NCBI RefSeq assembly: GCF_014197435.1
Contig: NZ_JACIFP010000001.1
Span: 434,001-498,000, forward strand
Origin: Gordonia humi
GTDB lineage: Bacteria; Actinomycetota; Actinomycetes; Mycobacteriales; Mycobacteriaceae
Direction: 5' to 3'
Length of the DNA: 64,000 nt
The position numbers were made by a program, and so were the translations under genes. Below, piece by piece: positions 825 to 30,223 of the stretch. Under the pieces are notes generated by a model. It was not told the origin of the DNA. It saw only the letters and a list, made by a program, of their open reading frames with translations, and searched no databases. Position 1 is the stretch's first letter. Every line of letters starts with the position of its first letter.

Positions 825-840
825 TAATCATCTATCTATT
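825..840. promoter_or_regulatory. Operator site A (TAATCATCTATCTATT)
   Basis: This AT-rich block lies in the 69-bp divergent gap between the LLM oxidoreductase and the dehydratase. It matches the core shared with other promoters of this island (TAATCA..TATCT..ATT). A further AT run, TACTATATAGTT, follows and may hold the promoter. Regulator unknown. Confidence 0.5.
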
Positions 841-883
841 TGTACTATATAGTTGCCGGGACTACACCGATAGGAGTTCAAGA

Positions 884-2155
884 ATGAGCGACGTGACAAG
901 CCCAGACCAGGAGGGCTACGGCACACTGACCGATGAGGCCTTCGAGCGATCACGTCGACGGATCGGCATCCCCGAACGGCCGCTCACCCCGCATAACCAC
1001 GAGGTGACCGTCGACGGCACCCGTCACTTCGCCTACGGCTACGGCGACGCGAACCCCCTCTGGTTCGATCCCGAATACGCCGCAACGACCCGGTGGGGCG
1101 GCATCATCGCCCCGCCGAATTTTCTCTACACAATGGGTGAGAACGCCGCGAAACCGGTGACTCCCGAACAGAAGGCCCTCCTCAAGGGCGATCCGTTCGC
1201 CGGTCTCGGCTCCTACCAGGCCGTGATGGAGTTCGAGTGGTTCCGCCCGTTGACCGCAGGCGACCGCTGCAAGGTGCTGCGTGCCCAGGTGGGCGTCCAG
1301 GAGAAGCCGTCGAAGTTCGGTGGCCGCACCGCGCACGTGACCAATGCGTTCCTGTTCGCCAACGGCGACGGCGACATCCACGCGACGCAGCGCGGCACCT
1401 GGATCAACGCCGAGCGCCACACTTCTAAGGCGAATGCGACGAAGACCGACCCGATCGACTTCACCACTCCCTACACCGACGAGCAGCTCGCCGAGATCGA
1501 CGCCGCCTACGACACCGAGACTCGACGCGGAGCACAGACCCGCTACTGGGAGGACGTCACCGTCGGCGACGAGATCCAGCCGCGCGTGAAGGGGCCGCTG
1601 ACCGTCACCGACATCGTCGTGTGGCATCTGGGCTGGGGCATGCAGCTCACTCCGCCCGGAGCGTTCGGCATCGCCCGCTCCATCCGCCGCAAGGTCCCCG
1701 GCCTGTACCCGCCCAACACACGGAACATCCCCGACACCGTGCAGCGACTGCACTGGGAACCCGAGCGTGCCAAAGAACTCGGCCTTCCGATGAACTACGA
1801 CTACGGCGCCATGCGCGAGACCTGGCTGACCCACGCGCTCACCGACTGGATGGGCGACGACGGATGGCTCTGGAAACTGTCGTGCCAGCACCGCAAGTTC
1901 AACTACATGGGCGACACCACCTGGGTCACCGGCACCGTCGTCGACAAGAAGCAGGTCACCGACGAGCGGGGCACCCGCAACGAGATCCATCTCGAGGTGG
2001 CGTGCACCAACCAGCGCGGCGAGGTCTCCACGCCGGGTACCGCGGTCGTCCTGCTGCCGACTCGCGAGGCTGCCGTCGAGCTGCCTAAGCCGCCCGCCGA
2101 CGACCTCGACGGGCTTCTCGCCCACGAGATCGAACTGCTTCGCACCGAAGACTGA
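884..2155 (+). CDS. Double hot-dog MaoC/FAS1-type acyl dehydratase
   Basis: A 423-residue protein with two hot-dog halves, of the MaoC-like FAS1-dehydratase type that hydrates enoyl-CoA or dehydrates 3-hydroxyacyl-CoA. The N-terminal half has the hydratase signature around residues 52-66 (YGYGDANPLWFDPEYA), but the usual active-site His after NP is Trp60, so catalysis may rest on the other half or another residue. The second half starts near residue 215 (YWEDVTVGDEIQPRVKGPLT). The ATG at 884 is chosen because AGGAG ends 7 bases before it; the open frame extends much further upstream without homology. It is followed after 10 bases by an aldehyde dehydrogenase, forming an operon under operator A. 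It probably supplies the hydration step of the island. Confidence 0.82.
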   Translation: MSDVTSPDQEGYGTLTDEAFERSRRRIGIPERPLTPHNHEVTVDGTRHFAYGYGDANPLWFDPEYAATTRWGGIIAPPNFLYTMGENAAKPVTPEQKALLKGDPFAGLGSYQAVMEFEWFRPLTAGDRCKVLRAQVGVQEKPSKFGGRTAHVTNAFLFANGDGDIHATQRGTWINAERHTSKANATKTDPIDFTTPYTDEQLAEIDAAYDTETRRGAQTRYWEDVTVGDEIQPRVKGPLTVTDIVVWHLGWGMQLTPPGAFGIARSIRRKVPGLYPPNTRNIPDTVQRLHWEPERAKELGLPMNYDYGAMRETWLTHALTDWMGDDGWLWKLSCQHRKFNYMGDTTWVTGTVVDKKQVTDERGTRNEIHLEVACTNQRGEVSTPGTAVVLLPTREAAVELPKPPADDLDGLLAHEIELLRTED

Positions 2156-2165
2156 GGAAGAACAC

Positions 2166-3635
2166 GTGACGACTACCGCGACCGACACCACTGTGGTCCC
2201 GACGGATCCGTCCCCGGAGACGCTCCGGCTGGTCCTCGACGCGCAACGCGCGGCGCAGCAGGCCGAGGGCATTCCGTCCGCAGACGTCCGCCTGGATCGG
2301 ATCGACCGATTCATGGCCGCCGTCCTGGAGGCGGCCGAGGAGATCTCCGAATCGTTGGACGCCGACTTCGGAAACCGACCGCGCGCGATCAACCTCAGCA
2401 CCGATCTCGCGGCCGGGATCGGTGCCGTCTCGACGGTCCGCGCAAGCATCGTCGACTGGATGGCGGCCCGGACCGTCCCCGGATCGGAACAGACGGGCGT
2501 TCCCGCATTCGTGCAGACTCGGCCCAAGGGTGTCGTCGGCGTCATCGGTCCGTGGAACTTTCCGGTCTCGCTGGTGGTGCATCCGACGATCGACGCGCTG
2601 GCGGCGGGCAATCGTGTGATGATCAAATTCTCCGACGTCCCCGAGCGCACCGCCGAGGTCTTCGCGCGGGCCGTTGGTACCCGGATGAGCCGCGACGAGG
2701 TCGCCGTGATCCGCGGCGGGCTCGACACGGCACGCACCTTCTCGGATCTGCCACTCGACCACATCATCTTCACCGGGTCACCGGCGGTCGGTGCGCAAGT
2801 CGCCGAGGCCGCGGGGCGCAATCTGGTGCCGGTCACTCTCGAACTCGGCGGCAAGAACCCCGTCGTGGTGTCGGCCGACGCCGATCTGGCCCGGGCCGCG
2901 GGACAGATCGCGGACTTCCGATTGACCAACGGCGGGCAGATCTGTCTGTGCCCGGACTATCTGTTCGTGCCGCGGGCGAAGGTCGACGAGTTCGTCGACG
3001 CCTACCGGGCGGCGGTGTCCGCGATGTACCCGACCTATCTCGACAACCCCGCCGTCGTCTCGATCGTCAACGATCGCAACTACGATCGGGTCACCGGCCT
3101 GATCGACGATGCGGTGGCGAAAGGCGCGCGAGCGGTCACCGTGGCTCCGCCTGACGAACAGCCCCGTCTGCCCGATCGTGCATCGCGGCGGATCGCGCCG
3201 ACGGTCCTCCTCGATGTGACACCGGAGATGACCATCGCGACCGAGGAGATCTTCGGCCCGGTCGTCGTCGTGTACCCGTACGACGATCTCGACGAGACGA
3301 TCGACTACATCAACGCCGCACCAAGCCCGTTGGCCGCCTACTGGTTCGGCCCGGACGATGCCGAGTACCGCCGGTATCTCGATCGAGTCACCTCGGGTGG
3401 GGTCACCCGCAACGCCATCGGCTCGCACTGGGCGGTCGACGGGGCGCCGTCCGGCGGTATCGGGCGCAGTGGCATGGGCGCCTACACCGGCTACACCGGA
3501 TTCCTCACCTTCAGTCATCAGCGCACCGTCGCCAGCGACGAGCGGACGAATCCCCGGCGACCGGACGCCGACGCCGTCGCCGCATTCATCGCGAAGACTG
3601 CTGCGGAGATCACGGCCCGCATCGACACGGCCTAG
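2166..3635 (+). CDS. Aldehyde dehydrogenase, NAD(P)-dependent (coniferyl-aldehyde-dehydrogenase-like)
   Basis: A 489-residue ALDH superfamily enzyme that oxidises an aldehyde to the carboxylic acid. Visible are the IGPWNFPVSL segment, the general-base region TLELGGKNP (Glu about 226) and the catalytic cysteine segment GGQICLCPDY (Cys about 260). Shorter than typical 500-residue ALDHs and lacking the FNxGQxC form, it resembles the coniferyl-aldehyde/fatty-aldehyde branch. The start is GTG at 2166 with GAGGAAG just upstream. It shares an operon with the dehydratase and ends at a strong hairpin. Its likely role is to feed acids to the acyl-CoA ligases downstream; the exact aldehyde is unknown. 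Confidence 0.87.
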   Translation: MTTTATDTTVVPTDPSPETLRLVLDAQRAAQQAEGIPSADVRLDRIDRFMAAVLEAAEEISESLDADFGNRPRAINLSTDLAAGIGAVSTVRASIVDWMAARTVPGSEQTGVPAFVQTRPKGVVGVIGPWNFPVSLVVHPTIDALAAGNRVMIKFSDVPERTAEVFARAVGTRMSRDEVAVIRGGLDTARTFSDLPLDHIIFTGSPAVGAQVAEAAGRNLVPVTLELGGKNPVVVSADADLARAAGQIADFRLTNGGQICLCPDYLFVPRAKVDEFVDAYRAAVSAMYPTYLDNPAVVSIVNDRNYDRVTGLIDDAVAKGARAVTVAPPDEQPRLPDRASRRIAPTVLLDVTPEMTIATEEIFGPVVVVYPYDDLDETIDYINAAPSPLAAYWFGPDDAEYRRYLDRVTSGGVTRNAIGSHWAVDGAPSGGIGRSGMGAYTGYTGFLTFSHQRTVASDERTNPRRPDADAVAAFIAKTAAEITARIDTA

Positions 3636-3649
3636 CGGTATCGCAGACG

Positions 3650-3693
3650 ACACGTGTCGATCGTCCCCGACAACGGGGATGATCGACACGTGT
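3650..3693. terminator. Long bidirectional hairpin terminator
   Basis: ACACGTGTCGATC at 3650-3662 pairs perfectly with 3681-3693, and an inner CCCC/GGGG stem closes a 6-base loop. It lies between the convergent ALDH and DoxX genes and is followed by TGTTTTC on the + strand. Confidence 0.8.
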
Positions 3694-3717
3694 TGTTTTC
3701 GAGTGCCGCGGCAGTGC

Positions 3718-4236
3718 TCAGTGAGACCGATGGAAGGCGGCGAGCTGGGCCGCCGCGGATACGAGACCGAGTCCGCCCGCGACGGCCGCTGCCCGCGTAC
3801 CGGCCAGTCTCTGATCGAGCCCGAGCGATCGGTCGACACTCCAGCGGCCGGGGCCGATCGCGGCCAGCGCAATCGCGGACACGGCCAGGTTGGCCACGTA
3901 TTCCCACCCCTCCGCGGTGATGAAGAACCCGTTCTTCGCGTGAACGGAGCGGCCGGCGACGGCCATCGTGCCGACGACGGCAGCCGCCGCGATCGGTGTC
4001 GCGGCACCCGCGACGATCGCCGCACCCGCACCGGCTTCGACGACTGCGCTGGCACCGGCCTGCAGTCTCGGTGATCGGAAGCCGATCGACTCGAACCAGC
4101 CCGCGGTGCCGTCGAGACTGCGCCCGTGCTTGATTCCGTGAGCGATCATGGTGCCGCCGACCGCGGCACGGAGCAGCAGTTGAACGGGTAGGTTCCCCGA
4201 ACCGGAGCAGCCCGGTTTCGTCACTGTCTTCGCCAT
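3718..4236 (-). CDS. DoxX-family small membrane protein
   Basis: A 172-residue protein with four hydrophobic stretches (about 15-35, 60-85, 88-105 and 120-170) and the DoxX-type opening LLLRAAVGGTMIAHGIKHGRSLDGTAGWFES. DoxX proteins are integral membrane proteins often placed with redox or catabolic operons; no enzymatic activity can be read here. The ATG at 4236 is preceded by GGAAGGA. It is the last gene of an apparent operon acyl-CoA dehydrogenase > enoyl-CoA hydratase > DoxX, 28 bases after the hydratase stop, and ends before the shared hairpin. Confidence 0.78.
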   Translation of the reverse strand: MAKTVTKPGCSGSGNLPVQLLLRAAVGGTMIAHGIKHGRSLDGTAGWFESIGFRSPRLQAGASAVVEAGAGAAIVAGAATPIAAAAVVGTMAVAGRSVHAKNGFFITAEGWEYVANLAVSAIALAAIGPGRWSVDRSLGLDQRLAGTRAAAVAGGLGLVSAAAQLAAFHRSH

Positions 4237-4264
4237 TGTCTGTTCTATCCTTCCGACCCGCCGA

Positions 4265-5038
4265 CTATCGCAGGGTCCACTTCGGTTTGACGAACCCGTC
4301 ACGGGAGACCTCGGCCGTGCCGATCGGGTTGCCGACCGCCGGATAATTCCAGGCCACTGCGTACGCGGCGTTCCGGTCCATGTCAAGGGTCTCCCAGACC
4401 GCCTTCACTGTGCCCTGCACCGCCGTCGGCGGTTTCGCCGCGATCGTCCGAGCGAGTGCGTCGACCCGCCCCCACAGTTCGGCGGCGGGGACCAGCTCGG
4501 ACACGAGGCCGATGGTGTGGGCGCGCAGCGCCGACATCCGCTCGTCGAGGCCGATCAGCGCCCAACGCATCGCCTCGCCGAGCGGCACTCGGCGAGCGAG
4601 ACCGATCGGTTCGAGCGCCGAGGTCATGCCGTAGGAGACATGCGGATCGAAGAACGTCGCATCGTCGGCGGAGACGATGAAGTCGCAGTCGTTCAACCAG
4701 TAGAAGGCGCCCCCGGCCACCATCCCGTGCACCGCGGCGATCACCGGCTTCCACACCTTGTTGGCCCGCGGCGACAGCCCCTGACCGGGATCGTCCTGGC
4801 TCCACACGTTCTGATGCAGGTGGAGTCCTTCGGCGACGTCGACACCGGTGCAGAACGCCTTGTCTCCCGCGGCCCGCAGGACCACGACGTGGACGTCGTC
4901 GTCGTCACGGACGTGCTTCCATACCTGTACGAACTCGTCGATCATCGTGTTGTTGAACGCGTTGAGCTTGTCCGGACGGTTGAGCGTGACGGTGGCGACA
5001 TGCGCATCCACCGCATATTCGATGGTGTCAAAGTTCAT
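4265..5038 (-). CDS. Enoyl-CoA hydratase/isomerase family protein
   Basis: A 257-residue crotonase-fold protein. The family landmarks are VATVTLNRPDKLNAFNN, the oxyanion-hole segments KAFCTGVDVAEG (about 60-70) and AAVHGMVAGGAFYWL (about 100-115), and a glutamate in the SALEPIGLA segment. It would hydrate or isomerise an enoyl-CoA. Its ATG at 5038 overlaps the stop of the upstream acyl-CoA dehydrogenase (ATGA) and AAGGAG sits 9 bases upstream, so this start is preferred over one nine codons earlier. Translational coupling suggests it acts on the product of that dehydrogenase. Confidence 0.87.
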   Translation of the reverse strand: MNFDTIEYAVDAHVATVTLNRPDKLNAFNNTMIDEFVQVWKHVRDDDDVHVVVLRAAGDKAFCTGVDVAEGLHLHQNVWSQDDPGQGLSPRANKVWKPVIAAVHGMVAGGAFYWLNDCDFIVSADDATFFDPHVSYGMTSALEPIGLARRVPLGEAMRWALIGLDERMSALRAHTIGLVSELVPAAELWGRVDALARTIAAKPPTAVQGTVKAVWETLDMDRNAAYAVAWNYPAVGNPIGTAEVSRDGFVKPKWTLR

Positions 5039-6228
5039 GGGGTCGAGCTCCTTGGTCGATGCCATGCCGGATCACGCGGCAACCCGAGTCCGCGTTCGGC
5101 GATGACGTTCTTGAGTACTTCGTTGGTGCCGCCCGCGATCGTCCACGCGCGAGCGTACAGATACGCGTCCTGCCACCACCCGTCGTCGACGGCTGCGGTG
5201 TCGCCCTCGGTGGCGATACCGTCGGCGCCTTCCAATCGCATACCGGCCTCGGTCATCGCCAGGTTGGTGTCACTGAAGAAGATCTTGACGGTCGGCGCAT
5301 CGGTGATCTCGGTCTGACCGGCGAGCATCCGCGACTGCGCTCGCCTGCTCATCAGGTCGACGACCGTCGCGTGCGTCGCGATCCGACCGACCTCCCGACG
5401 GACACTCGACTCACCGAACCGCGGACGAGCCAGGTCGACGAGCCGCCCGACGTTGAGCTGCAGTTCCGACGCCATTGCCGCGACGCCGGTCCGTTCGTGT
5501 GCGAGACTGGAATTAGCAACGGTCCACCCGTTGTCGACCTCGCCGATGACGGCGGACGCCGGAACCCTCACGCCGTCGAAGAACACCTCGTTGAAGTCAG
5601 TGGTACCGGTGATCTCCCGGAGCGGTCGGACATCGATGCCGGGCAGCGTCATGTCGATGGCGAAGGCAGTGATCCCCTTGTGCTTGGGCGCATCCTGATC
5701 GGTCCGGGCGAGAAGATAGCCGACGTCGGCATGCTGACCGTTCGTGGTCCACACCTTCTGCCCGTCTACGATGTAGTGGTCGCCGTCGAGTCGAGCGCGT
5801 GTTCGCAGCGACGCGAGATCGCTGCCCGCACCCGGCTCACTGAACAACTGGCACCAGATGTCCTCACCGCTGCGGATCCGGGGAAGGTAGTGGTCCTTCT
5901 GCGCATCGGTGCCGAAGTCGAGGATTGCGGGGGCGGCGAGCGCGTACGCGCCGATCGGCAGCCAGGTCTGACCGGTCGCCAGTTCCTCGGCGACGACGAA
6001 CGCCTTTCGCAGGTCCCAATCCGACGACCCGCCGTACTGCTCCGGCCACTCCCCACCCAGGTATCCGGCGGCGAAGAGGTCGGCCGTCCATTTCCGGATC
6101 GCCGGAACGAAATCGGCGTCGGGCGCGCGGACGCCCGTATGGTGCTTGACACCGGGGTTACGGTCGGCGATGAATGCGCGCACGCGCGCCCGGAACTCGT
6201 CGAGATCGGCATTCGTGTCGGCCCGCAT
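5035..6228 (-). CDS. Acyl-CoA dehydrogenase, large FadE-type subunit
   Basis: A 397-residue flavoprotein of the acyl-CoA dehydrogenase family that introduces an alpha,beta double bond and passes electrons to ETF. Visible are WPEQYGGSSDWD, the flavin-binding segment CQLFSEPGAGSDLASL, VDGQKVWTTNGQ and the C-terminal AGGTNEVLKNVIAERGLGLPRD. The canonical E-G-T catalytic glutamate near the C-terminus is replaced by G-G-T, so the base probably lies elsewhere, as in isovaleryl-CoA dehydrogenase types. The ATG at 6228 has AGGAGG 7 bases upstream; a GTG six codons earlier would bury that site. It is divergent from a shorter FadE-like gene at 6329, with which it may form an alpha2beta2 enzyme. Confidence 0.88.
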   Translation of the reverse strand: MRADTNADLDEFRARVRAFIADRNPGVKHHTGVRAPDADFVPAIRKWTADLFAAGYLGGEWPEQYGGSSDWDLRKAFVVAEELATGQTWLPIGAYALAAPAILDFGTDAQKDHYLPRIRSGEDIWCQLFSEPGAGSDLASLRTRARLDGDHYIVDGQKVWTTNGQHADVGYLLARTDQDAPKHKGITAFAIDMTLPGIDVRPLREITGTTDFNEVFFDGVRVPASAVIGEVDNGWTVANSSLAHERTGVAAMASELQLNVGRLVDLARPRFGESSVRREVGRIATHATVVDLMSRRAQSRMLAGQTEITDAPTVKIFFSDTNLAMTEAGMRLEGADGIATEGDTAAVDDGWWQDAYLYARAWTIAGGTNEVLKNVIAERGLGLPRDPAWHRPRSSTP

Positions 6229-6252
6229 TCGAGACCCTCCTGTCACCCTGTC

Positions 6253-6269
6253 TTAAATAGTTATATGAT
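6253..6269. promoter_or_regulatory. Operator site B (TTAAATAGTTATATGAT)
   Basis: It lies in the 100-bp divergent gap between the two acyl-CoA dehydrogenase genes and matches 14 of 17 positions of the strongest copy (9740-9757). The surrounding TTACCGTATTTGATAG is also AT-rich and may hold a promoter. Confidence 0.55.
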
Positions 6270-6328
6270 CTTACCGTATTTGATAGTAGCGTCGCGACAC
6301 GACGCGAGCCAGAACAAAGGGCAACCGC

Positions 6329-7300
6329 ATGGATTTCGAACTCAGTGATGAACAAGAGATGCTGCGCGAGGTGTCGCGGAGCATGCTCGCCGCCCACTGC
6401 TCGCCGGAGAAGGTGCGCGACGCGGTCGCGATCGACGTCGACGATTCCCTGTGGCAGCTCGGCGCCGACATGGGGTGGACCGGTCTGCCCGTGCCCGAGA
6501 AACACGGCGGTGCCGCGATGGGCCTGGTCGAGACGACGATCGTCGCCGAGGAGATCGGCCGAGCCCTCGCCCCCGGCCCGTGGACGGACACCGCGATCGC
6601 AGCGTGGGCGGCGTCCTCGGGCGGCGCGCCCGACGATGTGATCGCCGGCCTCGCATCCGGCGATCAGCGCGCCTCGGCCGTCATCGATCCGGGTTTCATC
6701 CAGGCCGCGGCGAGCGCCGACTGGCTGCTCGTCGTCGAGGATGCGGTCCGCTTGATCCCGGCGAACGCCACACAGTTCCGGCGACGCACGACGCTCGACG
6801 AGACGCGCCGGTTCTACGCGGCCGCCGATCTCGCCGACTCCGGATACGAGCTCGCGATCCCGGCGCAACGGGTGCGGGACGCCGCTGCCGTCATGGTGGC
6901 CGCCGACGCCCTCGGCGTCGCCGTAGCGACGATGCGGATGACCATCGACTACGCGACCGTGCGTCAGCAGTTCAATCGGCCGATCGGCTCTTTCCAAGTG
7001 GTCAAGCACAAGATCGCGGACATGCTCATCGCGATCGAGGGCCTGCGATCAACCACGTACTACGCCGCCATGGCCCTCGACGTCGACCTCACCGACGCGT
7101 CGTTGACCGCGAGCGCAGCCAAGGCGTTCGCCGCCGAGAAGGTCCCGGAGATCACCGGCGAAGCGCTGCAGATCCACGGCGGAATCGGGTTCACCTGGGA
7201 ACACGACCTGCACCTCTATCTGCGCCGCGCCAAGACCGACGAAGTCCTCGGCGGCGCTGCGGACTTCCATCACGATCGGGTGGCGACGCTGTTGGTGTGA
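6329..7300 (+). CDS. Acyl-CoA dehydrogenase, short FadE-type subunit
   Basis: 323 residues, shorter than a full acyl-CoA dehydrogenase (about 380). It keeps the N-terminal MDFELSDEQEMLREV helix, an abbreviated middle domain, and the C-terminal helical domain with YATVRQQFNRPIGSFQVVKHKIADM and HGGIGFTWEHDLHLYLRRAKTDEV. No catalytic glutamate motif is evident at the C-terminus. This composition matches the smaller partner of actinobacterial FadE heterotetramers, known for steroid side-chain FadE pairs, which contributes part of the flavin site. It is divergent from the 397-residue FadE at 6228 with operator B between. AAAGGGC precedes the ATG. Confidence 0.84.
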   Translation: MDFELSDEQEMLREVSRSMLAAHCSPEKVRDAVAIDVDDSLWQLGADMGWTGLPVPEKHGGAAMGLVETTIVAEEIGRALAPGPWTDTAIAAWAASSGGAPDDVIAGLASGDQRASAVIDPGFIQAAASADWLLVVEDAVRLIPANATQFRRRTTLDETRRFYAAADLADSGYELAIPAQRVRDAAAVMVAADALGVAVATMRMTIDYATVRQQFNRPIGSFQVVKHKIADMLIAIEGLRSTTYYAAMALDVDLTDASLTASAAKAFAAEKVPEITGEALQIHGGIGFTWEHDLHLYLRRAKTDEVLGGAADFHHDRVATLLV

Positions 7301-7321
7301 CCATCCCGCACGACGCGAATG

Positions 7322-7363
7322 GAACGGGCGGCGACTCTCAGGTCCGAAAGTCGCCGCCCGTTC
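7322..7363. terminator. Perfect 15-bp hairpin between convergent FadE genes
   Basis: GAACGGGCGGCGACT at 7322-7336 is the exact reverse complement of 7349-7363, with a 12-base loop. It sits between the stop at 7300 and the convergent stop at 7379; bidirectional terminator. Confidence 0.8.
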
Positions 7364-7378
7364 GCGTACTCGGGTCGA

Positions 7379-8569
7379 TCACCGGGCGGGCATCGCCGGA
7401 TCTCGCGGCAGGCCGAGCACCTGCTCGGCGATGGTGTTGCGCTGGATCTCCGACGTGCCCGCACCGATCGTGGAGGCACGGGTGGCAATGAATCCCATCA
7501 GCCACCTGCCCTTCTGCACCGCGAGATCGCTGCCGCGCGTCACGATCCCGTCCGCCCCGAGCATCTCCACGGCGAACTCGTGCAATTCCTGCTCGAACAT
7601 GGTGATGAACAGACGTGACACCGACGACGCGGCACCGGGCTCGCCGCGCACGATGATGTCGTTGATGACGCGGCTCGCGTTGTACTTCATCAACCGCACG
7701 CGGATCTCGAAGTCCGCGATACGATCGCGGATGATCAGATCGGAGCCGAGGCCGCGCTCGCGAACGAGGTCGATGAGTTCATCGAGAATCCGGCGATAAT
7801 TGGTCGCCTGGTTCATCGCTCCGGCCGCGCGCTCGTGCCCCAGCGAGGTCCGGACCAGCGGCCAGCCCTCGTTCTCCTCCCCGATCCGGTTGTCGACCGG
7901 CACCTCGACATCGTCGAAGAAGACCTCCGCGAAGTGCGCGGCGCCGGTGATGTCTCGCAGCGGGCGCACGGTGATGCCCGGGGAGTCGGCGTCGATGATC
8001 AGATAGGTGATGCCCTTCTGTCGCGACTCCTGCGTTCCCGTGCGCACCAGGGTGAAGAAGACGTCGGCGTCCGAACCGTGTGTCGTCCAGACCTTCTGTC
8101 CGTTGACGATGTACATGTCGCCCTCGCGGCGCGCCGTCGTGCGCAGCGCCGGAAGATCCGAACCGGCGCCGGGCTCCGAATAGCCCTGGCACCAGATGAG
8201 ATCCTGCCGAAGCATCGGTCCCAGCCAGCGCTCCCGCTGCTCGGGGGTGCCGTACTTGATGATCGTCGGGGCGACGATGCCCAGCCCCGTCCCCAACGGG
8301 GACGGAACACGGGCGCGTGCCGCCTCCTCCTGGTAGATCACCTGCCGCGCGAACGACAGTCCCATGCCGCCGTACTCGACCGGCCACGAGGGGCCCGTCA
8401 TCCGCGCGTCGTACATCGACGCGTGGAACGCTCGAACCCAGGCCTTGCGCTCGTTCGGATCACGCGGTCTGCGCCCGGGGGCGTTCTCAGCGAACCAGCG
8501 GCGGATCCGCGCCCGGAACTCGTCGTCGGTCTCGGCGTCGTGATCGACCGAAGTCGTCTGCTGCGCCAT
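7379..8569 (-). CDS. Acyl-CoA dehydrogenase, large FadE-type subunit
   Basis: A 396-residue acyl-CoA dehydrogenase with WPVEYGGMGLS, CQGYSEPGAGSDLPAL (flavin segment), VNGQKVWTTHGSDAD and the C-terminal STIGAGTSEIQRNTIAEQVLGLPRD. As in isovaleryl-CoA-type enzymes, the C-terminal motif is G-A-G-T-S-E rather than E-G-T, so the catalytic base lies elsewhere. The upstream gene's stop overlaps a first ATG at 8575 (ATGA), but GGAGG is better spaced (7 bases) for the ATG at 8569, which is used here. It forms a two-gene operon with the 370-residue FadE at 9684; such adjacent pairs are the known arrangement of alpha2beta2 acyl-CoA dehydrogenases. Confidence 0.87.
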   Translation of the reverse strand: MAQQTTSVDHDAETDDEFRARIRRWFAENAPGRRPRDPNERKAWVRAFHASMYDARMTGPSWPVEYGGMGLSFARQVIYQEEAARARVPSPLGTGLGIVAPTIIKYGTPEQRERWLGPMLRQDLIWCQGYSEPGAGSDLPALRTTARREGDMYIVNGQKVWTTHGSDADVFFTLVRTGTQESRQKGITYLIIDADSPGITVRPLRDITGAAHFAEVFFDDVEVPVDNRIGEENEGWPLVRTSLGHERAAGAMNQATNYRRILDELIDLVRERGLGSDLIIRDRIADFEIRVRLMKYNASRVINDIIVRGEPGAASSVSRLFITMFEQELHEFAVEMLGADGIVTRGSDLAVQKGRWLMGFIATRASTIGAGTSEIQRNTIAEQVLGLPRDPAMPAR

Positions 8570-8571
8570 GG

Positions 8572-21793: not shown

Positions 21794-21794
21794 T

Positions 21795-22703: not shown

Positions 22704-22731
22704 TCTCCGAGTGTCCCGCAGACGGAACATC

Positions 22732-22768: not shown

Positions 22769-22790
22769 ATGTCACGTCGCACGAGACGCG

Positions 22791-23444: not shown

Positions 23445-23665
23445 GCGGGCACACTTCCGGTGTGCACGCGCGCGCCGTGCAGTCCCTCGGCGGTCGACGC
23501 GGCCTCCACGCGCCATTCACCGCACGAGCACCAGCAGTCGTAGGTGCCGGACTCGGTCGGGATGATGGCCTGACCGTCGCAACTGCCGCCGGTGTTGGCG
23601 ATGGACTGCATGAACTCGAGGGGCTTCTCGTGCAGAGAGTTGTCCTCATCGTGATCACTCATCAT
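23441..23665 (-). CDS. Small cysteine-rich protein of unknown function
   Basis: A 74-residue protein, family not recognised. The N-terminus is acidic (MMSDHDEDNSLHEKP). The C-terminal half has Cys29 and a tight C-W-C-S-C cluster (Cys44, 46 and 48) within TYDCWCSCGEWRVEA, which looks like a metal or disulfide site. AAGGA precedes the two ATGs; the second (23662) is equally possible. Its start overlaps the end of the DUF35 gene by 11 bases and its stop overlaps the thioesterase start, so it is produced with both. It might be a zinc or iron-sulfur accessory factor, which is inference. Confidence 0.7.
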   Translation of the reverse strand: MMSDHDEDNSLHEKPLEFMQSIANTGGSCDGQAIIPTESGTYDCWCSCGEWRVEAASTAEGLHGARVHTGSVPA

Positions 23666-24101
23666 TCGATCCTTCTTCTGTCGATGCCGGCCGGAACACG
23701 GGGAGGAGCCAGCCGTCGGTGATGGGGTGGAAGTCGACCGTCAGCTTCATGCCGATCGAGACGGCCGAGGAGTCGACATCGATCACATTGCTGACCAGCC
23801 GGGCACCCGGGGCATCCGGCAGATCGACGACCACCGGGACCAGTGTCACATCGGGGAGTCCCGGAAACCCGTGAACCACCGCGAAGCTGTAGACCTCGGC
23901 CTCGCCTGCCAACTCAGTCCAGTCGACCCGGGCCGACTGGCATTCGGGACAGTACGGGGTGGGCGGCAACCGGAACGTGGCGCAGTCGGCGCATTTCGGA
24001 GCCACCAGGCGACGTTCCTTCGCGGCCTCCCAGAACGGTTCCGTCGTCGGGCTCGTCGTGATCCGCACGGTCTCGCCGGGCAGCGCTGTCGCTGTCGCCA
24101 T
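23655..24101 (-). CDS. Zn-ribbon/OB-fold DUF35 protein
   Basis: A 148-residue protein with an N-terminal helix, a rubredoxin-like zinc ribbon (Cys37, Cys40, Cys51 and Cys54 in CADC...CPEC) and a C-terminal OB-fold (EVYSFAVVHGFPGLPDVTLVPVVVDLPD). DUF35 partners bind thiolase-fold lipid-transfer proteins; in steroid side-chain degradation the Ltp2-DUF35 complex is a retro-aldolase. Its ATG shares a base with the stop of the upstream Ltp-like gene (TGATG), supporting a stoichiometric complex. It is required as scaffold or acyl-CoA binder rather than as the catalyst. Confidence 0.87.
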   Translation of the reverse strand: MATATALPGETVRITTSPTTEPFWEAAKERRLVAPKCADCATFRLPPTPYCPECQSARVDWTELAGEAEVYSFAVVHGFPGLPDVTLVPVVVDLPDAPGARLVSNVIDVDSSAVSIGMKLTVDFHPITDGWLLPVFRPASTEEGSNDE

Positions 24102-25315
24102 CAGCTGTCCCTTCCTAGAATGATGCCGGAGACGGGCAGTGACGCCGGCCCGCCCGTGACGAGTGCATGCTCGGCACCCGCGACCTGATTGATCGCCGTA
24201 CCACGCATCTGCTCCACGCCTTCGACGATGTGCGTCATCCCGATGATGTATGCCTCCGACAGCTGCCCGCCGTGGGTATTGACTGGGATCGTGCCCTTGT
24301 TCGGCGTCGGCGAATAGCGGATCGCACCCGACTCGACGAAGGCGCCTCCTTCGCCGCGCTCACAGAAACCATAGTCTTCGAGTTGCATGAGAACCATCGG
24401 AGAGAAGTGGTCATAGAGAAGCGCGACATCGATGTCACCGGGCGTCAACCCCGACTGGCGGTACAGCCGATCGGCGATCGGCTTATTGCCCGCCGACGCG
24501 AAGTACTCGTCGGGCATACCCATCCAGGCGAATGCTCGCCCCCACTCCTTGGTACCGCCGTGCGCCGCGGCGACGAGCGGTACCGGCTTCTGCTTCAGAT
24601 CCCGCGCTCGATCGATCGACGTGGTCAGGACGGCCACCGCACCGTCCGTCTCCTGACAGAAGTCGTAGAGGCACAGCGGCTCGGCGATCATGCGTGCCCC
24701 GAAGTAGTCCTCCTTGGTCAACGGCGTACCGCGAAAACGCGCCTTCGGACGATTCTGAGCGTTCTGCCGTTCGGCCATCGCGATCTCGCAGAACGCCTCC
24801 CGGCGGGTTCCGTACAGATACATGTGCCTGCGTGCGAGGACCGACATCAGGTGTCCCGGACCGGCGAGTCCGCTCGGCTGCAGGAACGAATTGACCGGAT
24901 CCGGCGCGACCGCCGCGAAGACGGTGCCGAGGCGTTGTCTGGACTGTTGCAGCGCCATCACCGTGACGACCATCGTCGCGTCGCCTGCCACGATCGCTGC
25001 GCGGGCGAGTCCGATCGATCCGGCCGAGCCGCCGCCACCCGAGGTCAGCGACGCGGTGAAGGTGACCTCGGGGATGCCCAGAGTCTCCATGAAATCCGCG
25101 GTGTCCATCTTCTCGCCGTAGCCTGCGCCCGCACCCGAGTAGTAGGCGAAGCCGTCGATGTCCTTGACCGAGACGCCCGCATCCTCGCACGCGGCGAGAA
25201 TCGCCTCGCACGCCATCTGCGTCGTCGTCTGCGGCCAACTCTCTCCGCGTTTGTAGTAGGGAGTCGCGCCGACGCCGACGATGGCGACGTCGCGCAGCCC
25301 GGTGGACTGTGTCAT
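24101..25315 (-). CDS. Thiolase-fold lipid-transfer protein, probable acyl-CoA retro-aldolase
   Basis: A 404-residue SCP2-thiolase-like protein: LRDVAIVGVGATPYYKRGES at the N-terminus, HGGTKEWGR, LYDHFSPMVLMQLEDYGFC and NTHGGQLSEAYIIGMTHIVEGVEQMRG near the C-terminus. The segment where thiolases carry the nucleophilic Cys reads ASLTSGGGGSAGSIG, with no cysteine, so Claisen chemistry is unlikely. This and the overlapping DUF35 gene match the Ltp-type retro-aldolases that split a tertiary beta-hydroxyacyl-CoA into a ketone and a shorter acyl-CoA. The ATG at 25315 follows GAGGGA, 7 bases after the amidohydrolase stop. Confidence 0.84.
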   Translation of the reverse strand: MTQSTGLRDVAIVGVGATPYYKRGESWPQTTTQMACEAILAACEDAGVSVKDIDGFAYYSGAGAGYGEKMDTADFMETLGIPEVTFTASLTSGGGGSAGSIGLARAAIVAGDATMVVTVMALQQSRQRLGTVFAAVAPDPVNSFLQPSGLAGPGHLMSVLARRHMYLYGTRREAFCEIAMAERQNAQNRPKARFRGTPLTKEDYFGARMIAEPLCLYDFCQETDGAVAVLTTSIDRARDLKQKPVPLVAAAHGGTKEWGRAFAWMGMPDEYFASAGNKPIADRLYRQSGLTPGDIDVALLYDHFSPMVLMQLEDYGFCERGEGGAFVESGAIRYSPTPNKGTIPVNTHGGQLSEAYIIGMTHIVEGVEQMRGTAINQVAGAEHALVTGGPASLPVSGIILGRDS

Positions 25316-25322
25316 GGCCGGA

Positions 25323-26459
25323 TCATCCCTCGATGACGTCGGTGCTCGCGGGCACCGACGGGACGTCAGGGAAGAGCTCGTAAAACGCGCCCTGCGTGAT
25401 CCGCAGGGTGGTCTCGGGCTTCGCGTCGGCGAACAGTCCTTCGAGGGTCTTCTGCGTGTGGCCGAATGTCCCCTCCATGTGCGGGTAGTCCGATCCGAAC
25501 ATGACGTTGTTGTAGCCCATCGCCTCGCATGCGGCGACCGCGGTCTCATCGTGCTGGAACGATGCGTACACCTGCGTCATCAAGATCTCCTTCGGATCCC
25601 GACTGAGCTTGGGACGGACCGCCATGTGGTGCTGACGGTAGCCTTCGAGCAGACGGTCGCCGAGGAACGGAATCCACGTCGCGCCGCCCTCGGAGATCAG
25701 GACCCGCAGGTTCGGATGCCTGTCGAGCGCACCGGATGCGACGAGCTTCATCGCCGCGCGCTGCCCGGAGAACGTGGTCTCCGTGTAGTTCATGACCGCA
25801 CCGCCCGGTCCGCGGTAGACCACCCCTGCACCGGCCGCGGCCATGTCGACCGGATCGGTGCCGATGTGAAACGCCGGGATGATGCCTGCCTTATCGCAGA
25901 TGTCCCAGAACGGCTCCCAGTCGTTGCGGTGCCAGTCCGGTGCCGACGGATGGGGCGTCGTCGGCAGGAAGACGGCCTTGAAATCGTTCTCCGCCAACCA
26001 CTCGATCTCGCCGACCGCGTCCTCGACGCGCAGGGTGGACACCTGTCCGGTGACGACATAGCGGTCGGAGACGGGCGCCAGTTCGTCACGTGCGTATTCG
26101 TTGCTGGCCCGCATGCACGCCTTCAGCAGCTCCGGGGTGCGGAACGTCGACGCCCACATGCCGAGGCTTGGAAAGATGACCTCGCCCCACACACCTTCTT
26201 TATCGAGGTCGGCTAGTCGCGCCCGCGGATCGCGGACCCCTTGCGGCCGGTGGCTCTCCTCGAGGAACTCCGCCGCTGCCGACGTCGGAAGCTTGCGACG
26301 GAACGTCTGGCCATCGACCGAGACCGTCTCCCACTCTCCGTCTGGATCCTTCTCCGACTTCGGTGTGAGATCGGCCATCTCTTTCGTGAGTCGCGATGTC
26401 CACACATCGTCCGGCTCGAGGAAGTGAGAGTCGCCCGAGTTGGTCCACATCTTGGTCAT
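25323..26459 (-). CDS. Amidohydrolase-2 family metal-dependent hydrolase/decarboxylase
   Basis: A 378-residue TIM-barrel amidohydrolase of the ACMSD-like type. The metal site near the N-terminus reads SGDSHFLEP (Asp10, His12 and Glu15) instead of HxH; later motifs include FHIGTDPVD, LRVLISEGGATWIPFLGDRL and the aspartate in GSDYPHMEG. Family members hydrolyse C-N/C-O bonds or decarboxylate and are common in aromatic, terpenoid and steroid clusters. The ATG at 26459 has GGAGG 7 bases upstream; an ATG two codons earlier is too close to it. It is first in the operon leading to the Ltp/DUF35 pair, with operator H in the divergent gap to a TetR gene. Confidence 0.84.
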   Translation of the reverse strand: MTKMWTNSGDSHFLEPDDVWTSRLTKEMADLTPKSEKDPDGEWETVSVDGQTFRRKLPTSAAAEFLEESHRPQGVRDPRARLADLDKEGVWGEVIFPSLGMWASTFRTPELLKACMRASNEYARDELAPVSDRYVVTGQVSTLRVEDAVGEIEWLAENDFKAVFLPTTPHPSAPDWHRNDWEPFWDICDKAGIIPAFHIGTDPVDMAAAGAGVVYRGPGGAVMNYTETTFSGQRAAMKLVASGALDRHPNLRVLISEGGATWIPFLGDRLLEGYRQHHMAVRPKLSRDPKEILMTQVYASFQHDETAVAACEAMGYNNVMFGSDYPHMEGTFGHTQKTLEGLFADAKPETTLRITQGAFYELFPDVPSVPASTDVIEG

Positions 26460-26545
26460 GTGCATTCCTCCACGCATTCCTTGGCTCGCGCTAGTGCGAA
26501 CCGCTCGTCAAACAGTATATTCGTCTAACGGATTCGAGCAAGACT

Positions 26546-26567
26546 TTTTAATAACTTTCTATTATAT
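26546..26567. promoter_or_regulatory. Operator site H (TTTAATAACTTTCTATTATA)
   Basis: It sits in the 151-bp divergent gap between the amidohydrolase operon and the TetR gene at 26611, 43 bases before the latter. It is a looser match to sites F and G. If the adjacent TetR is the island's regulator, this would be its own autoregulatory site. Confidence 0.5.
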
Positions 26568-26610
26568 TTTTCGATGGCACACTGATACGGCCGGCGAAGG
26601 GACGTGAACC

Positions 26611-27270
26611 GTGGCCAAACGAGCACACGTGACAGGGGAGGCCACACGGATCGCGCTGATGGAGGCCGCCGAACGGCTGTTCGCCGAGCGCGGCGTCGAG
26701 GGTGCGACACTGCGGGAGATCCGCGAGTCGGCGGGGCAGTCGAACACGTCGGTGATTTCGTACCACTTCGGTTCGAAACTCGGCTTGATCCAGGCACTCA
26801 TCCGTTGGCGTAGCGACGATCTCGTTCGCAGGCGAACCGAGCTTCTGAACGACGCCCGGCACACCGGAACGGAGCACGACCCACGAACCGCCGTGCGGCT
26901 CGTCGTCGATCCACTCGTCGAATCGATCGCGTCCGGGTCGATGTTCACGCCGTTCCTCGCGCGCCTGAGCGAGAACCCTCGGGCGACGAAGAACTACTGG
27001 CCGCCGGACGTCTACGACTGGACGGCCGACTTGATGGAACTCATCGTCGACGCCGCCGCAGGCGACATACCGGACCGGATCCAGCGGGGACGGACCTTCC
27101 AGATGTACAACAGTGTGCTGAACCTGCTGAGCGAGCACGCTCGATCGGGCCACCCGATCAGCGAGGTCCAGCTGAGCAACTCCATCGACGGGTGGGTCCA
27201 CATGCTCACGGCGCCGATGTCGGCGCAGACCCACCGACTGCTCGACGCGAACGAGGTTCAGGCCAGCTGA
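26611..27270 (+). CDS. TetR-family transcriptional regulator (candidate island regulator)
   Basis: 219 residues with a helix-turn-helix at about 33-54 (TLREIRESAGQSNTSVISYHFG) and a long helical sensor domain (about 70-215). The GTG at 26611 has GAAGGGA 8 bases upstream. It is divergent from the amidohydrolase/Ltp operon and directly behind a copy of the island-wide operator. Of the two TetR genes here it is the better candidate for binding all nine sites, because the other TetR's own promoter lacks the motif. The inducing ligand would be expected to be an acyl-CoA, by analogy with KstR-type regulators; this is inference. Confidence 0.85.
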   Translation: MAKRAHVTGEATRIALMEAAERLFAERGVEGATLREIRESAGQSNTSVISYHFGSKLGLIQALIRWRSDDLVRRRTELLNDARHTGTEHDPRTAVRLVVDPLVESIASGSMFTPFLARLSENPRATKNYWPPDVYDWTADLMELIVDAAAGDIPDRIQRGRTFQMYNSVLNLLSEHARSGHPISEVQLSNSIDGWVHMLTAPMSAQTHRLLDANEVQAS

Positions 27271-28289
27271 CTCGACAGATACGGCACGTCAGCGAGGGCA
27301 CGCAGCGCATCGTTGAGGTGCGTGCATCCCGCCGTTCCGCTCAGCTCGTCGAGCACCGCGCTCCGCAGGTCGGCCATCGGCGTTCCGATCAGACGATCGA
27401 CGTTGAGCACTGCAAGCGGACACTCGGCGTACGGGAGGACATGGGCTTCGGGCGTCACCGACGCGAGTCGCCCGGTTTCCAGATCTGCGCTCGCGCGTAA
27501 ACCGTACTCGTGTACTGCGATCCGACTCCCGGTCGGGCGGGTCGCACTGTCTTGGAACATCGCGTCGACGTACGCCGTCGAACCGTCTCGCCACACATCG
27601 ATCCGCCGTGCCCGCCGCATCGATACCTCGGCGATCTCGGCGAGGTCGTGCCAGGCGAGCGGGTCCGGGACTGAGTCGAGCGGCTCCACCGGCCGCGTGC
27701 GATGTGTCCAACGCGAGGTCCCGTCGGGGGCCAGTCCACTCGATCCCGGCATGAAGCCGGTGCAGATACCGACCATCGTGCGCCGGGCGGGCCCGGGCGA
27801 CCTCGGCACGTCGGCGAGAAGTTGTTCGATCGGGTACCACTGAGCGAAGGCGAACCCCGAGACGAGGGTCGCACCGGGGACGTCGTCGAGCATCAGATCC
27901 ACCGGATCGTGACCGGTGATCGATGGCACGGCATCGCCGAGCCGTCGACGGAAGCCGCTGCCCGCCCCGCCGCCGACCAGATGCTCGATCCCAGGACGCC
28001 CGGGCTCGGCTTCTATCCGCAGAACGTTCCGCCGCGGATCGACGTCGAGACGCATCCGGCTCGTCGCGAGGGTCTTCGTCGAGCGGTCCTCGGCCGTCCG
28101 CAGATCTCGCCCGCGACCGTCGAGGTACAGGTCGGTGCCCCACCCGTCCGCCCAGCGCATGTCGATCGTCGTGGTGCGACGAATCGACCCCGGACGTCGT
28201 CCCGGTGCAGACTGCCCGGGGCCGTGCACCCGCGCACGCGAATTCGAGAAGTCCGGTGCGGCAACGTCGTTCGAAAATTCCTCGGTCAT
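27258..28289 (-). CDS. DUF2889 family protein
   Basis: 343 residues, matching the DUF2889 layout: the opening RRTTTIDMRWADGWGTDLYLDGRGRDL, a beta-rich middle, and the closing GTAGCTHLNDALRALADVPYL (Cys and His in GCTHLND). Function is unknown in the family; it occurs with fatty-acid or aromatic catabolic genes. It overlaps the convergent TetR gene by 13 bases. A GATGAGG ribosome site precedes the ATG. The promoter gap has only a weak half of the common operator (AAATCATT), so it may be regulated separately. Confidence 0.77.
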   Translation of the reverse strand: MTEEFSNDVAAPDFSNSRARVHGPGQSAPGRRPGSIRRTTTIDMRWADGWGTDLYLDGRGRDLRTAEDRSTKTLATSRMRLDVDPRRNVLRIEAEPGRPGIEHLVGGGAGSGFRRRLGDAVPSITGHDPVDLMLDDVPGATLVSGFAFAQWYPIEQLLADVPRSPGPARRTMVGICTGFMPGSSGLAPDGTSRWTHRTRPVEPLDSVPDPLAWHDLAEIAEVSMRRARRIDVWRDGSTAYVDAMFQDSATRPTGSRIAVHEYGLRASADLETGRLASVTPEAHVLPYAECPLAVLNVDRLIGTPMADLRSAVLDELSGTAGCTHLNDALRALADVPYLSSQLA

Positions 28290-28356
28290 GTCGACACCTC
28301 ATCAGCACAATGATTTACTTCTTGACTCTATGCCCGCACGCCCCGGAATCGCGGAT

Positions 28357-28383
28357 GCCCGACGTCGATCGTCGACGCCGGGC
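28357..28383. terminator. Hairpin in the gap upstream of the DUF2889 gene
   Basis: GCCCGACGTCGA and TCGACGCCGGGC pair with one G-T over a 3-base loop, in the 112-bp gap 18 bases past the leftward thiolase stop side. Both neighbours point leftward, so it could only end transcripts entering from the right strand or act as a processing site. Confidence 0.4.
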
Positions 28384-28401
28384 TTCTGCATGAGACCGCG
28401 C

Positions 28402-29583
28402 TCAGATGCGCTCGATGATGGTGGCGTTGGCCATGCCGCCGCCCTCGCACATCGTCTGCAGACCGTAGCGACCACCAGTCTGTTCCAGGTAGTTCACCAT
28501 CGTCGCCATGAGGCGCGTACCCGAGCCGCCGAGCGGATGTCCGAGTGCGATCGCTCCACCGCGCGGATTCAGCTTGGCTTCGTCGGCACCGAACTCACGC
28601 GCCCACGCCAGCGGGACCGGCGCAAACGCCTCGTTGACCTCATAGGCGTCGATCTCCCCGATCGACAGCCCCGACTTCGCGAGGGCCTGCTTCGTCGCCG
28701 GGATGACGCCATCGAGCATGACCAGCGGGTCCGAACCCGACACTGCGAACGTGTGGAATCGCGCACGCGGCTTGAGACCGAGTTCGGCGGCCTTCTCCTC
28801 GCTCATGATGAGTGCGGCCGACGCTCCGTCGGTGAGCGGCGACGAGTTGCCGGGCGTGATGGCCCAGGTGATCTCGGGAAACCGCTTCGCGAACTGCTCG
28901 TTGTAGAACGCCGACGTGAGCCCGGCGAGTCCGGCGGCAGTGGTGGTCGGCCGAACCGTCTCGTCGACGAGGTGAGTGGAACCGCCGGGCAGGGTGACCG
29001 ACACCATCTCGTCGGCGAACGCCCCCTCGGCGAAAGCCACAGCCGCACGCTCATGAGAGCGCGCCGAGAACGCATCCAGCTCTTCACGGCTGATGTTCCG
29101 GCGCGCCGCGATGAGCTCGGCGCCGATGCCCTGGTGCGCGAGACCCGCCGGGTAGCGCTCGGCGAGCGGTCCCTGCGGGTCGGTTCCCGGCAGCGCCGCG
29201 GCACCCATCGGGACGCGACTCATCGACTCCACACCGCCCGCGATCACGATGTCCTGGGCGCCGGAGATGATCGCCTGGGCCGCGAAGTGGGCGGCCTGCT
29301 GGCTCGAACCGCACTGACGATCGATCGTGGTGCCGGGGACGGACTCGGGGAATCCCGCGTGAAGAACTGCGGTCCGCGCGATGTTGAGCGACTGGTCGCC
29401 GACCTGCCCGACACAGCCGGCGATCACGTCATCCACCAGCTGAGGATCGAGGCCGTTTCGCTCAACGAGTAGGCGGATGACCTGCGATAACATCACCGCC
29501 GGATGCATCTCGGACAGCGCACCGCCCGGCTTTCCTTTACCCGATCCGGTACGGATGATGTCGACGATGACAGCAGAAGTCAC
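28402..29583 (-). CDS. Acetyl-CoA acyltransferase (thiolase)
   Basis: A 393-residue catalytic thiolase with all three active-site residues: Cys91 (TIDRQCGSSQQA), His349 (GHPLGGSG) and Cys379 (MCEGGGMANA). It cleaves 3-ketoacyl-CoA to acetyl-CoA (or propionyl-CoA) and a shortened acyl-CoA. It resembles FadA-type thiolases of actinobacterial lipid/steroid clusters. It is transcribed alone from a promoter overlapping operator G. Together with the acyl-CoA dehydrogenases, hydratases and the HSD10-like SDR it completes a beta-oxidation spiral encoded within the island. Confidence 0.92.
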   Translation of the reverse strand: MTSAVIVDIIRTGSGKGKPGGALSEMHPAVMLSQVIRLLVERNGLDPQLVDDVIAGCVGQVGDQSLNIARTAVLHAGFPESVPGTTIDRQCGSSQQAAHFAAQAIISGAQDIVIAGGVESMSRVPMGAAALPGTDPQGPLAERYPAGLAHQGIGAELIAARRNISREELDAFSARSHERAAVAFAEGAFADEMVSVTLPGGSTHLVDETVRPTTTAAGLAGLTSAFYNEQFAKRFPEITWAITPGNSSPLTDGASAALIMSEEKAAELGLKPRARFHTFAVSGSDPLVMLDGVIPATKQALAKSGLSIGEIDAYEVNEAFAPVPLAWAREFGADEAKLNPRGGAIALGHPLGGSGTRLMATMVNYLEQTGGRYGLQTMCEGGGMANATIIERI

Positions 29584-29604
29584 GAGTAGCTCCTCGGCTC
29601 GAAC

Positions 29605-29626
29605 TTTAATAGTTATCTAATATAAC
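29605..29626. promoter_or_regulatory. Operator site G
   Basis: It begins TTTAATAGTTATCTAATATA and contains the inverted repeat GTTAT-CTAAT-ATAAC. It lies 22 bases upstream of the thiolase start, so it would overlap the leftward promoter. It matches site F at 19 of 22 positions. Confidence 0.62.
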
Positions 29627-29667
29627 CATTCGAGGGTCTGTGTCGCAACACCGATCCACACTTGAGG

Positions 29668-30199
29668 TCAGCAGCGAGCGGCCGCACCGATAGCCGATGC
29701 GCAGCGGACAAATGCTTCGAAAAGCACGTGATGGTGAGGATCGCGGCCAGCTCGCTGACCGCGATCCGATCTGCGGCGGACATCGTTCACAGATAGTCGA
29801 CGGTGCCACCGCGCACGACACCGCCCTACTGCACCCACACGTACTGAGCCGGAGCATCGACGCAACCGAGCGTTTCGCCAACCCGTCGGCGATCCCGGCA
29901 CCCCCTGTTGGTCGTACTTCCACGTCCATCCGCAATCCGCCTCTCGCACCGCGTAGGCCGCAGCCACATCCCGCAAGTCAGGCCGGATATCCGTCGAGAA
30001 GAGCAAGACGACACTCGCCCGAGAGCTCTTGCATCACCCCGCGCCACCATCCGTGATGCGCTTGCTGGCCACGCACGAGGACTACGGTTCGATCTCCGCC
30101 TCCACGGACATCGAACCAGATCTCGGCGTCGCCGACCTCCACCGAGCGTTCCAGTCCGTCGACACCTCCCGGCGGACCGATGTTGCGCAACTCACTCAT
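29668..30199 (-). pseudogene. Decayed alpha/beta hydrolase
   Basis: The reading frame starts MSELRNIGPPGGVDGLERSV and runs about 70 codons through an alpha/beta-hydrolase beginning (IWFDVRGGGDRTVVLVRGQQAHHGWWRG; the usual HG of the oxyanion loop is RG) before a stop after LLDGYPA. Further fragments lie in other frames of the same strand: RPDLRDVAAAY, then AQYVWVQ ending at a stop, then DPHHHVLFEAF, which matches the C-terminal catalytic-His region of such hydrolases. The nucleophile-elbow region is missing. Point changes, frameshifts and an internal deletion are the simplest explanation. It is divergent from the alcohol dehydrogenase and still has operator I in front. No other gene occupies 29627-30199. 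Confidence 0.7.
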
Positions 30200-30204
30200 A
30201 TATA

Positions 30205-30223
30205 CAGATAACTGATTGTTATA
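30205..30223. promoter_or_regulatory. Operator site I (minus strand TAACAATCAGTTATCTG)
   Basis: On the minus strand it carries the exact 13-base core AATCAGTTATCTG of site C. It sits in the divergent gap between the hydrolase pseudogene and the alcohol dehydrogenase. The remaining bases to 30332 show no other motif. Confidence 0.6.

Follow-up and report, generated by a model that had tools for sequence, protein, structure and literature searches.

A GntR/FadR-type protein as the probable reader of an AT-rich operator repeated across a 60-kb catabolic block of Gordonia humi

Which protein reads an AT-rich operator that recurs in the promoter gaps of a block of catabolic operons? The question is raised by a stretch of 64,000 nucleotides of the Gordonia humi genome (contig NZ_JACIFP010000001.1, positions 434,001 to 498,000 of the forward strand), referred to here as the window. 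A preliminary description had marked nine related sites in its first 31 kb and proposed that one TetR-type repressor controls them all. Our analysis confirmed the nine operators and extended the set beyond the window, and points to a GntR/FadR-type protein, encoded outside the window, as the probable regulator of a 60-kb catabolic block. Coordinates are those of the window unless prefixed with C1 (contig) or L (other loci); G numbers denote genomes.

All nine sites were found within a few bases of the positions given earlier and could be aligned without gaps as 22-mers. We built a matrix of 22 columns from them (the nine-site matrix). Where a counterpart in G025, another genome of the genus, is noted below, it occupies the corresponding promoter.

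Operator A, 824..845, plus strand: between a leftward open reading frame (ORF) of 331 amino acids and a rightward FAS1-dehydratase-like gene; 30.4 bits, 25.2 when left out of the matrix.
Operator B, 6253..6274, plus strand: between divergent acyl-coenzyme A (CoA) dehydrogenase genes, 5035-6246 (minus) and 6329-7300 (plus); 34.5 bits.
Operator C, 9740..9761, plus strand: 56 bp before an acyl-CoA dehydrogenase gene, 8572-9684 (minus); 33.8 bits; G025 counterpart 24.3 bits.
Operator D, 14817..14838, plus strand: before the leftward genes 14459-14764 and 12928-14508 (AMP-binding enzyme); 30.7 bits; G025 counterpart 21.5 bits.
Operator E, 18750..18771, plus strand: between divergent genes for an enoyl-CoA hydratase, 17902-18720 (minus), and an acyl-CoA dehydrogenase, 18801-19949 (plus); 25.8 bits; 21/22 identical in G025.
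Operator F, 21772..21793, plus strand: between divergent acyl-CoA thioesterase genes, 20914-21753 (minus) and 21795-22703 (plus); 32.7 bits.
Operator G, 26547..26568, plus strand: between an amidohydrolase gene, 25323-26477 (minus), and the gene for TetR2, 26611-27270 (plus); 26.7 bits, 18.4 when left out, the second-lowest such score.
Operator H, 29605..29626, plus strand: before a thiolase gene, 28402-29583 (minus), with a DUF2889 gene downstream of the thiolase; 35.5 bits.
Operator I, 30198..30219, minus strand: before a zinc alcohol dehydrogenase gene, 30333-31445 (plus); 27.7 bits.
Weak operator-like site, 10489..10510 (C1:444489), minus strand: in the gap between TetR1 and an aldehyde dehydrogenase (ALDH) gene; 15.2 bits with the nine-site matrix; not among the 16 sites of the full set.

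Operator C has perfect 6-bp arms (AATCAG/CTGATT) flanking TTAT. The 13-mer AATCAGTTATCTG is exactly common to sites C and I, as had been noticed, and a genome search with one mismatch allowed returned these two places alone. The reported agreement of F and G at 19 of 22 positions was mistaken: their best ungapped agreement is 14/22, and the value of 19/22 belongs to F and H. When ORF 200-2155 is read at its longest, it takes in operator A, but in relatives the gene start falls after the site. Nearly every catabolic operon of this region does have a site, as described earlier, but not every one, as the operon of ALDH and short-chain dehydrogenase (SDR) genes at about 10.5-12.8 kb has the weak 15.2-bit site alone.

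The matrix was run against 18 stretches of 20 kb (360 kb) taken across the same 5.09-Mb genome. No place in this background reached 14 bits, and 10 places did so between 1 and 31.5 kb of the window (the nine operators and the weak site at 10489), together with 3 in L029 and 4 in L111, the 40 kb preceding the window. Between 31.5 and 64 kb there were none, nor any position of at least 10 bits, in keeping with the earlier observation that no sites follow the first 31 kb. When each of the nine sites was scored with itself left out, values were 17.9-32.4 bits, and 9/9 exceeded every background position (maxima 13.5-15.5 bits). None of 62 background 22-mers that were at least 70% AT reached 16 bits, and each of 20 first-order Markov shuffles of the window had 0-2 positions at or above 12 bits.

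A covariance model built on sequence alone lacked the power to scan whole genomes (with E of 10 or below it gave 3 matches in the own genome, all in the island, and it gave 3 in four other genomes) and was replaced by patterns in the International Union of Pure and Applied Chemistry (IUPAC) code. The island makes up 1.2% of the genome and holds 16/17 own matches to a 22-base pattern and 13 of the 20 places matching a 16-base pattern. The 1 and 7 matches outside it are at chance level, because reversed-pattern controls in the same genome gave 2 and 17 matches, respectively.

In full, 16 sites lie in 14 gaps from C1:404748 to C1:464219 (about 60 kb), with two sites each in two of the gaps. The lowest-scoring is C1:404748 (14.9 bits), and the site at C1:428909 falls inside the longest reading of the ORF following it. 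The window edge is not where the sites begin, as 7 further ones lie in the preceding 30 kb.

Regulated catabolic island, in-window part, 200..31445: the whole island reaches about 29 kb beyond the left edge of the window and includes a GntR/FCD gene.

At its right end, at 31.5 kb of the window, stand two arabinosyltransferase (emb-type) genes. The island encodes acyl-CoA ligases, acyl-CoA dehydrogenases, hydratases, thiolases, CoA-transferases, thioesterases, aldehyde and short-chain dehydrogenases, and an ATP-binding cassette (ABC) importer of the branched-chain amino acid type. Two of its regulators have their nearest named relatives in Gordonia (62% and 84% identity). One operator extends over the island, which supports a single regulon; this part of the proposal of a single TetR-type repressor stands, and the assignment to TetR is not supported, for reasons given below.

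Pattern and matrix scans detected the same operator in islands of seven further genomes from this genus. Clusters lie at 2152-2183 kb in G025, 3744-3776 kb in G017 and 3211-3259 kb in G027, also in G073, G003 and G074, and less densely in G028. The own genome and six others (G017 was left out because it nearly duplicates G025) contributed 68 sites of at least 17 bits, which gave the consensus TTAATYAGTTAACTRATTnWACTRTat, the pooling being iterative and threshold-based, which sharpens a consensus. In G025 there are counterparts for seven of the nine promoters, those of A, B, C, D, E, G and H; none was found there for F and I. With matrices made from own sites only, six of the seven (A-E and H) scored 19.8-31.4 bits, including 30.1 bits at A (18/22 identical) and 19.8 bits in the thiolase promoter at H. 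The counterpart of G, which cannot be aligned with G, scored 14.5 bits with the nine-site matrix and 20.7 bits with the pooled matrix, which includes it. Operators B and E stand out as blocks of identity within diverged gaps (for B, against both G025 and G017). In contrast, the motif-poor relatives G004, G009, G020 and G030 have 0-2 matches each to the 22-base pattern. A search across the order, allowing one mismatch, found matches in 2/298 genomes, the own genome and one other.

A protein of the GntR/FCD type first surfaced in a domain scan of the small proteins of the G027 island, and the own island was found to encode a relative.

GntR/FCD gene, C1:413515-414327 (L209:2515-3327), start 20.5 kb before window base 1: 270 amino acids, winged helix and FCD domain.

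An operator site lies 104 bp before its start. The winged helix (PF00392) scored 66.9 bits (cut-off 27) and the FCD domain (PF07729) 62.7 bits (cut-off 24.3) in this protein; 7/7 scanned island proteins were above the PF00392 cut-off, and 7/7 have FCD. NanR was its best profile match in the PDB (2.4e-21), and it has the same two domains as the FadR-subfamily (FCD) regulators NanR, PdhR, LldR/CGL2915 and VanR. The predicted structure has six long helices in residues 110-258 (mean predicted local distance difference test score, pLDDT, 78.5), and the 50 Foldseek matches listed were all GntR-family entries with template modelling (TM) scores of 0.34-0.45 by query length, which supports the domain class only. 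Relatives with 37-71% identity are encoded in the islands of G025, G028, G027 and G073, and tblastn detected others in G017, G074 and a second locus of both G017 and G025.

Among 59 genomes of the genus, the eight best matches to the GntR protein (E of 1e-105 or better) were in G025, G017, G000, G028, G027, G074, G073 and G003, and these are eight of the nine genomes with at least 3 motif matches. The next-best match was at 3.4e-98, and no motif-poor genome scored as high as the eight. Co-occurrence was thus 8/8 against 1/51 (Fisher p 4e-9), the one being G076 with three scattered motif matches. G003 was recovered although absent from the query. Sites of at least 20 bits were present within 1.5 kb of GntR in 13/13 of the best loci of the genus. 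These include the intermediate-scoring loci from genomes outside the matrix, 5/5 of which have a site of 20.0-27.3 bits at this distance. At the lower-scoring loci (covered in 17 of the 24 such genomes) 0/17 had a site of at least 20 bits within 1.5 kb, the best being 14.1 bits. In other genera, 4/29 GntR loci had a site of at least 17 bits, and two of these sites lie 69 and 85 bp upstream of the GntR gene. Sites resembling the operator, with scores of 17.6-21.7 bits, were seen near GntR relatives of other genera at L245, L248, L249 and L263.

These observations suggest a scheme in which the 270-amino-acid GntR protein would bind an AT-rich palindrome (consensus TTAATYAGTTAACTRATT), flanked on one side by an additional ACTR half-site, at the 16 sites in 14 gaps, including the site before its own gene, which would make it autoregulatory. 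One dimer would cover the central palindrome, and a second dimer may use the flanking half-site. The most likely outcome would be repression, rather than activation, of the operons for acyl-CoA ligases, acyl-CoA dehydrogenases, hydratases, thiolases, CoA-transferases and the ABC importer. Repression is the usual mode of this regulator class. Promoters would be released when a carboxylate or CoA thioester of the pathway fills the FCD domain.

How well does this scheme fit the FadR subfamily? According to PMC4494728, sites of this subfamily are A/T-rich palindromes with GT and AC 2-3 nucleotides apart and TKGT/ACMA boxes, and a weaker extra box lies 7-12 nucleotides from the centre in sites of 13 orthologous groups. 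TKGT/ACMA boxes and Arg28 are usual and not defining, and the same paper names two regulators, NanR and BioR, whose sites depart from the consensus. It also reports that Arg at position 28 of the helix-turn-helix prefers G/C at the box position and that Gly at position 59 avoids A/T. For relatives, PMC2230225 and PMC8012715 give a TNGTNNNACNA consensus and cooperative dimer binding. The island operator is likewise AT-rich and palindromic with an extra half-site, and differs in its box (YAGT/ACTR, not TKGT/ACMA), in the absence of Arg28 from its candidate regulator and in the number of operators (16 over 60 kb). The consensus YAGT-TA-ACTR fits the GT/AC spacing, though many single sites do not. 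An ACT at +21..23 was present in 19/68 pooled sites, against 0-2 at 13 control offsets, and on the other flank an AGT at -2..0 was present in 5/68, against 0-2 at 14 control offsets. Arg28 is absent from 13/13 GntR proteins of the genus; this fits the A in place of G in the box, because Arg28 prefers G/C there.

Several results weigh against the assignment to GntR. The co-occurrence is partly by construction, since the query was drawn from motif islands and its rows omitted only G003 and G017, and the five genomes outside the matrix amount to about two lineages with near-identical sites. What is informative in it is the lower scores of all motif-poor genomes, the recovery of G003, and the sites near the gene in the five intermediate-scoring genomes compared with the lower-scoring loci. 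In other genera 25/29 GntR loci have no site of 17 bits nearby. The first comparison of islands found relatives of TetR1 in five genomes and of GntR in four. The fit to GT-N2-AC is loose, with GT at 8-9 in 41/68 pooled sites, AC at 12-13 in 17/68 and both in 8/68, and the count of the extra half-site is partly selected, because columns 21-22 were part of the matrix used to pick out the sites. The box itself departs from TKGT, with A at position 7 in 61/68 sites. Proteins without Arg28 are also found where the motif is not: the residue is missing at 5/11 readable lower-scoring loci of the genus (6 were unread), at 29/29 loci of other genera and in the solved E. coli-type regulator 7c7e. By eye the protein has Gly at position 59, which does not agree with an AT-rich box. 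In the logo of the pooled sites the mirrored correlation is 0.78 about position 10.5 and 0.86 about a second axis of symmetry at 15.0, and the resulting 19-bp spacing would suit a TetR too.

The GntR protein could be a frequent member of the regulon, the operator being read by another regulator encoded outside the islands. Annotation covered the islands and their flanks, which leaves room for such a protein. However, the GntR gene keeps a nearby site even in genomes with 0-1 motif matches (G026, G018, G002, G021 and G067), as expected of autoregulation, and we consider an outside regulator improbable.

The island encodes TetR-type proteins as well, for which the following features are relevant.

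TetR1, 9782..10411, minus strand: PF00440 and PF16859; start probably near 10411, judged by the G025 relative; read as a local regulator.
TetR2, 26611..27270, plus strand: PF00440; read as a regulon member and local regulator.
Putative TetR1 operator, 10449..10474: a different palindrome, 23.8 bits with a palindromic model from promoters of TetR1 and TetR3 relatives (background maximum 15.8 bits), the site itself being part of the fit.

If TetR2 were the regulator, TetR dimers would bind a 19-bp YAGTW-N9-WACTR arrangement at all sites, which the axis at 15.0 suits. Site G lies about 65 bp before TetR2, the corresponding G025 gap also has a site (that described above for G), and in G028 a 20.0-bit site precedes the start of a TetR2-like gene (44%) by about 30 bp. 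Against this, a regulator of the TetR type would need an orthologue wherever the operator cluster occurs, and TetR2 orthologues were found in G017 and G025 only, among 60 other genomes searched (the genome-wide search did not include G073 and G074). None was found in G027 (best match 30% identical), although the motif island there is dense, and no relative of TetR4 was seen in the islands compared. A 60% TetR2 orthologue occurs in Nocardia jinanensis, yet no site in its 20.6-kb locus exceeds 15.8 bits. The TetR2 locus of G017 and G025 is 57 and 97 kb away from the main motif islands and also holds a second GntR. Control of the whole island by TetR2 therefore appears quite unlikely. Three unrelated TetR genes of different islands (L142:18678-19358, L148:17141-17830 and L111:16275-16874) each have an operator 18-93 bp upstream, so that the local TetRs look like regulon members.

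A role for TetR1 or TetR3, the PF16859 pair, is less likely still. Proteins of this type are encoded in the islands of G000, G025, G017, G027 and G073, and on another contig in G003, and one relative, in G094, has a 20.8-bit operator of the island kind 111 bp upstream. This was the case at 1/29 loci of PF16859 relatives, even at a threshold of 10 bits, whereas the different palindrome reached at least 14 bits in 16/27 promoters of the subfamily, including those of TetR1 and TetR3 themselves (an in-sample fit; the G094 promoter fits both). The recognition helices of these TetRs also differ among islands. They are thus encoded in the same island and have their own operator of another sequence, and TetR1 may control the adjacent ALDH-SDR operon. 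The second palindrome, of the TATACnGAACG..CGTTCnGTAAA type, occurs at the TetR1 (10449-10474) and TetR3 (L029, about 11624-11649) promoters and also before relatives in other genera.

That the sites are ordinary AT-rich promoter elements is hardly credible: they are AT-rich and lie in promoter gaps, but the motif is confined to the island, the 360-kb background and its AT-rich 22-mers score low, motif-poor relatives have next to no matches, and the operators at B and E are identity blocks in diverged gaps.

The sterol regulons of KstR and KstR2, which are under regulators of the TetR family, are instances of actinobacterial control of acyl-CoA catabolism over many operons. The island is alike in this respect, and its operator and its candidate GntR regulator differ from theirs. 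For the KstR operator, whose consensus we take to be TNNAACNNGTTNNA, 0/16 own sites were within 1 mismatch and 8/16 within 2, and 1/68 pooled sites was within 1; none of the 16 own sites came within 2 mismatches of the KstR2 consensus. The earlier remark that the pattern fits neither holds up. A literature search with operator strings returned, judging by titles, nothing on bacterial regulation, shorter strings, where examined, standing in cloning primers, which does not establish the operator as unpublished; within the literature searched, DUF2889 brought up two papers, and Gordonia terms returned nothing bearing on this island.

Our analysis thus provides a candidate regulator and a predicted operator for a 60-kb catabolic block, and a matrix with which similar islands can be recognised in other genomes. 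As the operator marks distant genes of one regulon, it can help to group pathway genes and guide the search for the inducer, and hence the substrate. The chances are roughly even that one GntR and one operator, with the unusual YAGT/ACTR box and no Arg28, travel together through Gordonia as a portable control code, wired each time into partly different acyl-CoA catabolic operons, and that the pair reaches other Mycobacteriales.

G025 has two GntR paralogues in motif-bearing loci (L024:11934-12893 and L138:4263-5210) about 98 kb apart, as does G017 at about 58 kb. A gene for a DoxX membrane protein (3718-4386), with relatives in several motif genomes and common to several islands, was examined as a possible small regulator and found not to be one. 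A syntenic core at 22791-29583, comprising genes for 4HBT, OB, thiolase, amidohydrolase, TetR2, DUF2889 and thiolase proteins, recurs in G025 and G017, and some of it also in Nocardia jinanensis (L024, L027 and L030).

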